A stretch of DNA of 43,577 nt from Bacteroidales bacterium (GTDB taxonomy: Bacteria > Bacteroidota > Bacteroidia > Bacteroidales > Dysgonomonadaceae): assembly GCA_012727735.1 (NCBI GenBank), contig JAAYGM010000141.1, positions 1 to 43,577 on the forward strand. The letters run 5' to 3'. Each line of letters starts with the position of its first letter. The first letter of the stretch is position 1. This document shows, piece by piece, positions 11,449 to 13,556 of the stretch. The notes below the pieces were generated by a model. It did not search any database and was not told the DNA's origin. It saw nothing but the letters and a program-made list of their open reading frames with translations. Both the position numbers and the translations under genes were made by a program.

Positions 11449-12798
11449 TTATTCAGCTGGTAATGATTCACCCAATAGGGTGGCTGAGGTGAAGCCGGTG
11501 ACTTTTACTTTTACGAAATCACCTATACGATGATGCTTTTTGTCGAATATAAGCACCTTGTTCTGGTCGGTACGACCAAAGAGTTGTTCTCTGGATCTTT
11601 TTGAGAACCCTTCCACCAGCACCTCGAACACTTTGCCCAGGTCTTTCTCGTTGCTTTGGTGTGACAGCTCCTGCTGAAGCTGAATGATATCCTGCAATCG
11701 CCTGTTTTTGACCTCTTCCGGTACATCGTCCTCCAGTTTCTTAGCTGCATAGGTCCCCGGACGTTCCGAATACTTGAACATGAAAGCTGAGTCGAAACCC
11801 ACTTCACGCATTAAAGAAAGTGTCTCCTGATGATCCTCCTCCGTCTCGGAATGAAAACCGCACATGATATCGGTGGAGAGCCCGCAATTGGGGATGATCC
11901 GTTTGATGGCGGCAATCCTTTCCATATACCACTCCCTGTCATATCTTCTGTTCATCAGCTTCATCATGCGTGAGCTGCCGGACTGCACAGGGAGGTGAAT
12001 ATAATTGCAGAGATTGCTGTATCCGGCGATCGTCTCCAGTGTCTCATCGTTCATGTCCCAGGGGTGGGAGGTGGTGAAACGGATACGCATGCCGGGAGCT
12101 TCCTCTGCCACCATCGCCAGTAGTTCATGAAATTCGATTTGTCTCTCCCCATCCTGATAATGGTATGAGTTCACATTCTGTCCCAGCAGGATGACCTCCC
12201 TGAAACCTTTCCCGCGCATGTTGCGCAGTTCGTTGAGAATGCTTTCAGGCTCACGGCTTCGTTCACGTCCGCGGGTGAAGGGGACGATGCAATAGGTGCA
12301 AAACTTGTCACATCCGCGCATGATGGAGATATATCCCGATATATTGCTTCCTTCCATCTTGAGAGGGATTACATCTTTGTATGTCTCCGTTTTGGAGAGT
12401 TCGATATTCATCACTTTCTCTCCCCGTTCAGCTGCTCCCACCAGGTTGGGCAGATCGAGATAAGCATCGGGACCTACCACCACGTCCACATGGTGATTGT
12501 CGATCAGGTCAGACTTAACCCGCTCGGCCATGCATCCCAGCACACCTACGATGAGGTGGCCTTTGCTTTTTCTCTTCAGTGAATTGAAGTATTCCAACCG
12601 CTGTATCACCTTCTGCTCTGCATTATCTCTGATGGAGCAGGTGTTGACGAAAATGGCATCTGCTTCCCTGTCGTTGTCCGTGAGGCTGTAGCCATCCATC
12701 TCCATGATGGATGCAACTACTTCACTGTCTGCCACATTCATCTGGCATCCGTAAGTCTCAATAAAAAGTTTTTTCTCTTTGGTTATGTCTGAATTCAT
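11449..12798 (-). CDS. miaB: tRNA-2-methylthio-N6-dimethylallyladenosine synthase MiaB
   Basis: 449 residues. A radical-SAM methylthiotransferase that adds a methylthio group to i6A37 of tRNAs reading UNN codons. The N-terminal UPF0004 domain carries three cluster cysteines in YGCQMN, NTCSIRD and VLGCMAE. The radical-SAM site RGCDKFCTYCIVPFTRG is at about residues 160-176, and a TRAM RNA-binding domain occupies about 380-445. Length and motif order are normal. It is MiaB rather than MtaB or RimO because of the YGCQMN start and the NTCSIRDNAEQKV block. It stands alone; the upstream region to 13020 contains a separate predicted short RNA on the other strand. Confidence 0.95.
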   Translation of the reverse strand: MNSDITKEKKLFIETYGCQMNVADSEVVASIMEMDGYSLTDNDREADAIFVNTCSIRDNAEQKVIQRLEYFNSLKRKSKGHLIVGVLGCMAERVKSDLIDNHHVDVVVGPDAYLDLPNLVGAAERGEKVMNIELSKTETYKDVIPLKMEGSNISGYISIMRGCDKFCTYCIVPFTRGRERSREPESILNELRNMRGKGFREVILLGQNVNSYHYQDGERQIEFHELLAMVAEEAPGMRIRFTTSHPWDMNDETLETIAGYSNLCNYIHLPVQSGSSRMMKLMNRRYDREWYMERIAAIKRIIPNCGLSTDIMCGFHSETEEDHQETLSLMREVGFDSAFMFKYSERPGTYAAKKLEDDVPEEVKNRRLQDIIQLQQELSHQSNEKDLGKVFEVLVEGFSKRSREQLFGRTDQNKVLIFDKKHHRIGDFVKVKVTGFTSATLLGESLPAE

Positions 12799-12870: not shown

Positions 12871-12902
12871 GTTGTTTCTTTCTCATTCTTGAACTATATT
12901 TG
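12871..12902 (+). promoter_or_regulatory. Bacteroidetes-type promoter upstream of a predicted short RNA
   Basis: GTTG (12871-12874), a 20-base spacer and TATATTTG (12895-12902) match the consensus well. It points away from miaB and towards a terminator only about 45 bases further on. Confidence 0.6.
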
Positions 12903-12908
12903 CTCGGG

Positions 12909-12985
12909 AAAAATAAAAATTTTTCATAGTTAAGGTTTTGGTTAAATGTTCGGGAGTGACTGTGAAGTTACTCCTGAAATTTTTA
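12909..12985 (+). ncRNA. Candidate small RNA (or terminated leader), about 75 nt
   Basis: Begins about 7 bases after a near-consensus promoter. It contains a small AT hairpin near its 5' end (GAAAAAT / ATTTTTC around a 4-A loop). It ends in a strong hairpin: TTCGGGAGTGAC (12949-12960), loop TGTGAA, GTTACTCCTGAA (12967-12978), 12 consecutive pairs with two G-U, followed by a T-run. No ORF of useful length is inside. The next gene (13053) has its own -7 element after this terminator, which favours an independent transcript over a simple leader. I do not recognise a known RNA family. Confidence 0.42.
12949..12984 (+). terminator. Strong terminator hairpin upstream of the 13053 gene
   Basis: A 12-bp stem with a 6-base TGTGAA loop, then AATTTTTAT. 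It lies in a non-coding gap, about 45 bases after a promoter and 70 bases before the next start codon. Confidence 0.65.
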
Positions 12986-13020
12986 TATCTCCAAATGCCA
13001 CTTAATTCGCGAAAAATCAT

Positions 13021-13028
13021 TATTTTTG
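13021..13028 (+). promoter_or_regulatory. -7 element for the 13053 gene
   Basis: TATTTTTG fits TAnnTTTG, with the ATG 24 bases downstream. The -33 position shows no clear TTG, so the call rests on one element. Confidence 0.35.
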
Positions 13029-13052
13029 TCAAGTCACAAAATTAATCAAATT

Positions 13053-13556
13053 ATGGAGTTTGGAGACATCATTTATTTTATCCTTCTGGTATTTTTCATG
13101 ATATTGGGTTTTTTTAATGATTCCAGGAAGAAGAAAAATCTGCAGAAAAAACAGACCGGGACAAATGCTGTACCTGTTCCGGATAAGATAGACGAGACTT
13201 TTTATCAAAAAATGGAGCGTCAGAGAAATAAGCTGGGCAACGAAAAAACCACCCCCCCACCTGCGCTCCCTCCCACCTATTCCGGAAAAGAGGTGCATAC
13301 GCAATTCCAGTCATCCATGGATTTGGTGACCGATTTCAAGAAAGAATCATCCCTGAAGAGCTCAATTTTCGTATTTGATGCAGATTCATCTTTTGCACAG
13401 GAGAGTGACTCCTCAGATGATTTTAATTCAAAACGCCCGGCTGTTCAGAAAGGCAGTTCTGTACATCCTCTTGTCCGAGATTTGTTAACGGACGGAGGTA
13501 TGGAAGAACTTAAAAAGGGCCTGATTTACGGTGAGATTCTGCAACGCAAGTACTGA
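13053..13556 (+). CDS. Hypothetical membrane-anchored protein
   Basis: 167 residues from the ATG at 13053. The ORF track's TTG start would place coding sequence inside the promoter element. One transmembrane helix lies at the extreme N-terminus (DIIYFILLVFFMILGFF, about residues 4-20). It is followed by a basic stop-transfer stretch (DSRKKKNLQKKQ), a low-complexity Pro/Ser/Thr/Lys-rich middle, and a more conserved-looking C-terminus (HPLVRDLLTDGGMEELKKGLIYGEILQRKY). The topology suggests an N-terminal anchor with a cytoplasmic tail. I recognise no domain. It sits 46 bases upstream of the CoA-transferase gene and may be cotranscribed with it. Confidence 0.72.
   Translation: MEFGDIIYFILLVFFMILGFFNDSRKKKNLQKKQTGTNAVPVPDKIDETFYQKMERQRNKLGNEKTTPPPALPPTYSGKEVHTQFQSSMDLVTDFKKESSLKSSIFVFDADSSFAQESDSSDDFNSKRPAVQKGSSVHPLVRDLLTDGGMEELKKGLIYGEILQRKY

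Follow-up and report, generated by a model that had tools for sequence, protein, structure and literature searches.

Promoter, predicted transcript, and terminator beside miaB

The window analyzed here is a 43,577-nucleotide stretch of DNA from a Bacteroidales bacterium of the family Dysgonomonadaceae. The intergenic region between miaB and a hypothetical gene carries a promoter and a terminator in close succession (Table 1). The original prediction placed a 75-nt small RNA (sRNA) here, transcribed from a promoter of the form GTTG-N20-TATATTTG and ended by a 12-bp stem with a T-run. We found the promoter at exactly the coordinates claimed. The stem and the T-run are likewise present, with a stem of 13 bp rather than 12. 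With +1 set five bases past the -7 box, the predicted RNA is about 80 nt long, close to the length first proposed. As claimed, no convincing plus-strand ORF was found from promoter to terminator, and the downstream gene has a -7-like element of its own, TATTTTTG, after the terminator. A 49-aa frame on the minus strand (12883-13032) is unsupported.

Table 1. Features at the miaB-proximal locus of the window
Feature	Position	Strand	Details and basis
miaB, divergent neighbor marking the syntenic site	11449-12798	-	Pfam UPF0004, Radical_SAM, TRAM
Promoter, sigma-ABfr type	12871-12902	+	GTTG 12871-12874, 20-nt spacer, -7 box TATATTTG 12895-12902; read from the sequence
sRNA transcript, predicted, ~80 nt	12907-12986	+	Ends deduced from the -7 box and the T-run
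Weak 5′ hairpin, possible	12908-12925	+	A-rich flank 12908-12914 pairing with U-tract 12919-12925; from folding
Unpaired core TTTTTCATAGTTAAGGTTTTGGTTAA, candidate seed, 26 nt	12920-12945	+	From conservation
Intrinsic terminator	12949-12984	+	Stem 12949-12961/12966-12978 (13 bp), GTGA (GNRA) loop 12962-12965, T-run 12980-12984
Hypothetical gene downstream	13021-13556	+	ATG 13053; own -7-like box TATTTTTG 13021-13028

The segment from 12904 to 12990 folds at -23.8 kcal/mol, compared to -12.6 for shuffled sequences (z = -4.2; 0 of 200 shuffles were as good). A scan of the 1-kb region returned three terminator-like sites against 0.9 expected; by scan alone the terminator is only mildly unusual, and conservation decides. 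At the 5′ end, 72 distinct flanks gave a mean minimum free energy of -2.6, versus -1.37 for shuffled flanks (z = -8.5, from related sequences that are not independent and hairpins that are each weak). This suggests that a weak 5′ hairpin could mask the U-tract.

Conservation of the core, stem, and promoter

We searched for the core, TTTTTCATAGTTAAGGTTTWGGTTAA, with up to three mismatches and found it in 40 of 295 Bacteroidales genomes, while the reversed-pattern control gave a handful of matches. There is one copy per genome, apart from three related genomes with two. The exact core is present in at least 118 contigs, and the genera named among the matches listed are Bacteroides, Parabacteroides, Barnesiella, Porphyromonas, Paludibacter, Proteiniphilum, Mediterranea, Massilibacteroides, and others; the Bacteroidales that carry it come from gut, oral, and environmental habitats. 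Distant blastn matches were to Parabacteroides distasonis, Phocaeicola massiliensis, and Bacteroides finegoldii. None were found outside the order: a sample of 297 genomes across the phylum gave matches only in the source genome and two others of the same order. A profile built from the miaB-linked RNA, profile R1, matched the window at 12900-12992 (87.8 bits, E = 1.3e-13 in the source genome) and scored at least 63 bits in 43 genomes; weaker matches are a mixture that includes FopS sRNAs. In four genomes of the same family this profile found no match with E at or below 1e-3; some close relatives have therefore lost the RNA or carry a diverged form.

In an alignment of 44 sequences picked for diversity, about 23 of the 26 core columns are invariant, a T/A position apart; the set was collected via the core, and this invariance therefore partly reflects how the sequences were chosen. 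The terminator stem behaves differently, its sequence being free to vary in the same alignment while pairing is kept. Both sides change at each of the 13 pairs, pairing holds in 92.8% of cells versus 68.4% when shuffled, and the covariation score is 0.814 versus 0.308, a value that 0 of 500 shuffles reached. The loop is GNRA (GTGA, GCGA, GGGA, GAGA, or GCAA) in 127 of 137 cases by a simple hairpin finder, which picked the wrong hairpin in most of the others. A -7 TTTG lies 8 to 32 nt ahead of the core in 132 of 136 non-redundant copies, compared to about 15 in shuffles, and TTG occurs in the -33 zone in 122 of these copies; a match in a Roseburia metagenome-assembled genome (MAG) that has no miaB was excluded from the set as odd. 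Since the core is fixed, the stem covaries, the loop is GNRA, and the TTTG recurs, the promoter-core-terminator unit is under selection as an RNA gene. An RNA gene spanning the predicted transcript, and not a local curiosity, is well supported by these sequence comparisons.

The chromosomal position is also retained. A divergent miaB lies upstream of 119 of 156 copies, mostly 90 to 430 nt away, and at some of the other copies the surrounding sequence is cut short; acetyl-CoA hydrolase is downstream of 89 of the 156. In the annotated records of two relatives the element has miaB on one side and, on the other, a hypothetical gene and then acetyl-CoA hydrolase, which is the order in the window; for the third blastn relative, a protein search gave the same placement of miaB and the hydrolase. 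In the window, the gene between the RNA and the hydrolase (13053-13556, plus strand) encodes a hypothetical protein of 167 aa with no Pfam match, and relatives likewise have hypothetical genes there.

Similarity to FopS and putative targets

The miaB-linked RNA resembles the FopS sRNAs (PMC11697453) in its sigma-ABfr-type promoter, its length (~70-80 nt), an unpaired 5′ segment with UUUUUCAU(A/G)GU ... AGGUUAA, a terminator hairpin with a GUGA loop, and complementarity to susC start regions. FopS RNAs shut down sugar-importer genes in Bacteroides: they pair with susC translation start regions and block translation, and RbpB counteracts this (PMC11697453). The base-pairing is backed by compensatory mutations, and RbpB, which prefers AU-rich single strands, was crosslinked to the 5′ portion of FopS (PMC11697453).

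We then compared the core with start regions. Against dinucleotide shuffles, complementarity to susC start regions of its own genome gave z = -2.6 to -3.1, compared to -0.8 for other genes and -0.6 for gene-internal controls. In a second genome, whose copy has a Bacteroides-type flank, the value for susC was -4.9; the positive control, FopS against susC, gave -4.0 to -6.8. Since susD start regions, which also tend to ATGAAA (MKK-type), yield nearly the same value (z = -2.1), SusC specificity is weak in the source genome, and the signal may reflect starts of secreted proteins generally. The complement of a 17-mer of the core, with up to two mismatches, showed no excess over the reversed-pattern control in 22 genomes once self-matches were removed, and the complement of a 23-mer matched only itself in the source genome. 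From this moderate complementarity we infer the targets.

We consider it probable that the RNA is a trans-acting, FopS-like translational repressor of about 80 nt whose core pairs with start regions, possibly under RbpB. RNA polymerase would start at the sigma-ABfr-type promoter and stop at the GNRA-capped terminator, as predicted from sequence and conservation, and the terminator stem may vary provided that pairing holds, as the alignment shows. The functional part would be the unpaired 26-nt core. Its 5′ half, UUUUUCAUAG, complements (CU)AUGAAAAA starts, and its 3′ half the A/C-rich sequence just upstream. The core would thereby pair with the start regions (AUGAAAA) of mRNAs for SusC-type and other secreted proteins and block translation as FopS does. 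Control by the RRM protein RbpB is possible; a single RbpB-like RRM protein is encoded in the genome, on contig C266. Repression at AUGAAAA starts is our favored mechanism, still unproven, and protein binding is its main rival.

Near-total conservation over 26 nt exceeds the need of one short seed and leaves room for protein binding or for several targets. The core could serve mainly as a protein-binding site, the RNA acting as a scaffold or sponge for RbpB or some other RNA-binding protein, with base-pairing secondary. This would fit 26 nearly fixed nucleotides with little target signal, the lack of an excess of near-complementary targets, the RbpB homologue in the genome, the crosslinking of RbpB to FopS, and its preference for AU-rich single strands. 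However, complementarity to susC starts rises above both shuffles and other genes, and the related FopS works by base-pairing, as its compensatory mutations indicate. We therefore regard a mainly protein-binding core as improbable, though it is the strongest competitor of translational repression.

A subfamily separate from FopS

The original prediction recognized no known family. This holds at Rfam thresholds: a gathering-threshold search of the window returned only a thiamine pyrophosphate (TPP) riboswitch aptamer (RF00059, 7765-7859, minus strand, 61.6 bits) and a tRNA gene (RF00005, 15241-15316, minus strand, 60.3 bits), and the miaB-linked RNA is absent from the Rfam catalogue. The statement has to be amended below threshold, where reciprocal model matches reveal a FopS relative. 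Under permissive settings, the FopS model (RF04319) scores 18.7 bits at the site, with a cut-off of 56, and 24.3 to 31.3 bits in three orthologues, the highest being that of B. finegoldii (31.3 bits, E = 0.003). Conversely, the next matches of profile R1 in the source genome after the window are three FopS copies (33.6 to 36.1 bits, E = 0.002 to 0.007). These lie on three contigs and score 77.7, 77.6, and 53.6 bits with the FopS model, two of them over the cut-off, while the core itself has one copy in this genome. FopS was reported within Bacteroidaceae (PMC11697453), and the three copies apparently fall outside that family. Other weak Rfam matches at the site (rli45, ceN114, snoR64, and enod40) are on the wrong strand or from the wrong kingdom, and we attribute them to chance.

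Unlike FopS, the miaB-linked RNA has (U)UAAGGUUUWGGUUAA and an extra A-rich 5′ flank. It carries both ends of the FopS seed (R1/R1′, UUUUUCAUGGUAUUAGAUUUAAGGUUAA) without AUUAGAU, and its core starts near +14, behind the flank, whereas the FopS seed is at the very 5′ end, a difference that counts against FopS-like repression. It is single copy at miaB, compared to 12 to 15 FopS copies per genome in Bacteroidaceae. Because the FopS score is far below the cut-off and the FopS seed insert is absent, we assign the RNA to a separate subfamily, with the FopS sRNAs as its closest relatives. Alternatively, it could be a diverged true FopS copy. The architecture is the same, the UUUUUCAU-RGU and AGGUUAA blocks are common to both, the loop is GNRA, and the models match reciprocally. 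Yet the scores stay low in the window and in the orthologues alike, AUUAGAU is missing, the genome has distinct FopS copies, and a single-copy, syntenic gene is unlike FopS; membership in FopS proper is thus decidedly unlikely.

GibS (RF04182) shares a 5′ UUUUUCAUAGU element, is associated with RbpB, and acts on start regions, but it is 145 nt long, with a second seed (R2), a PM2 promoter, and another locus; with an Rfam threshold of 115 bits, its model gave no match in the window even with E allowed up to 5. BTnc231 (RF04180) begins with UUUUUUUCAUAGAGAUUUAGAUUU and has a hairpin with a GUGA cap, but it is 154 nt long and has further hairpins. Its model scores 14.4 bits in the window, against a cut-off of 80.4, and 27.7 bits in the B. 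finegoldii orthologue (E = 4e-4 in a short search). MasB and BatR of Bacteroides thetaiotaomicron are also intergenic sRNAs (PMC10994844, PMC10861873). Both reportedly bind RbpB and act near start codons (PMC11697453); MasB is described as narrowly conserved, and BatR as conserved in Bacteroides species (PMC10994844, PMC10861873).

We propose a FopS/GibS/BTnc231-like superfamily marked by a UUUUUCAUAG start, an AGGUUAA-type end of the unpaired part, and a hairpin terminator, usually GNRA-capped. The miaB-linked RNA has all three. In this reading, FopS, GibS, and BTnc231 are the members that already have names, and the miaB-linked RNA forms an orthologous branch of its own. In other Bacteroidales families, profile R1 matches variants of TTTTTTCATAG..AGGTTAA plus a hairpin, sometimes in tandem; some are FopS by Rfam, and most are not. 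Tandem arrays of two to four units (TTTTTCATAGGTTAAG..TTTAGGTT plus a hairpin), ~180 to 520 bp apart, were seen at four loci in these families. Much more tentatively, the miaB-linked RNA might be the core member, single copy and inherited vertically, of a superfamily spanning the Bacteroidales (FopS, GibS, BTnc231, and the tandem arrays) that targets AUGAAAAA starts of outer-membrane transporters and secreted proteins. If true, it would be an order-wide posttranscriptional regulator of the cell envelope.

A stand-alone RNA rather than a leader

The original prediction left two choices, an independent sRNA or a strongly attenuated leader. Conservation, synteny, covariation, and promoter recurrence all strongly favor the former, and a stand-alone sRNA is strongly supported by the comparisons. 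In the latter, most transcripts would stop at 12985 and some would read through into the gene starting at ATG 13053. Indeed, the next gene in the window is on the same strand with the terminator preceding it, and a same-strand frame comes next at 90 of 107 loci. A leader is nonetheless disfavored, since the next frame is on the opposite strand at the other 17 of 107 loci (by a heuristic ORF call; several of these frames are 300 to 1167 aa, with 1167, 595, and 609 aa at three loci). Furthermore, the gene downstream carries a -7-like box of its own, and the protein it encodes lacks detectable similarity at most relatives' loci, where the RNA can still be detected. A cis-acting attenuator is expected to have a co-directional gene always and an anti-terminator fold; neither was found, the consensus fold being the terminator only. 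We judge a leader very unlikely.

A peptide, MKETLDFFIVKV*, was also rejected, as it fits Bacteroides-type sequences only. Every codon position of the core is fixed, and the genera have no start codon in common; the only upstream frame with a start codon, ATGAAAGAA..., is that of Bacteroides and is absent from other genera. A chance pairing of promoter and terminator with no RNA function would agree with scans only mildly above shuffles, but order-wide conservation, synteny, and covariation speak so strongly against it that we give it almost no weight.

Relation to known sRNAs and additional copies

To our knowledge, none of the classical sRNA chaperones (Hfq, ProQ, and CsrA) occurs in Bacteroidales, and we know of few Bacteroidales sRNAs with known roles. 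With the miaB-linked RNA, the FopS-type design reaches Parabacteroides, Dysgonomonadaceae, Porphyromonas, Barnesiella, and Paludibacter; its chromosomal position there is fixed, and its core hardly changes. Clean deletion of one syntenic, single-copy gene is far easier than that of 14 redundant FopS genes, which would allow a direct test of this RNA design in laboratory Bacteroides strains. Full-text literature searches turned up no article that names an sRNA at miaB in Bacteroidales. In B. thetaiotaomicron, 22 intergenic sRNAs are conserved in at least two genera (Ryan et al. 2020, PMC7366714), and the miaB-linked orthologue may be among them.

A phage origin was considered and rejected: no phage record matches, and two matches among viral_contigs look cellular, with miaB and the downstream genes present on them. 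In two Bacteroidales MAGs the miaB-linked RNA occurs as an adjacent pair, the copies 277 to 394 nt apart. Second copies with no miaB in range occur at four loci of Parabacteroides-like genomes, one of them P. distasonis.
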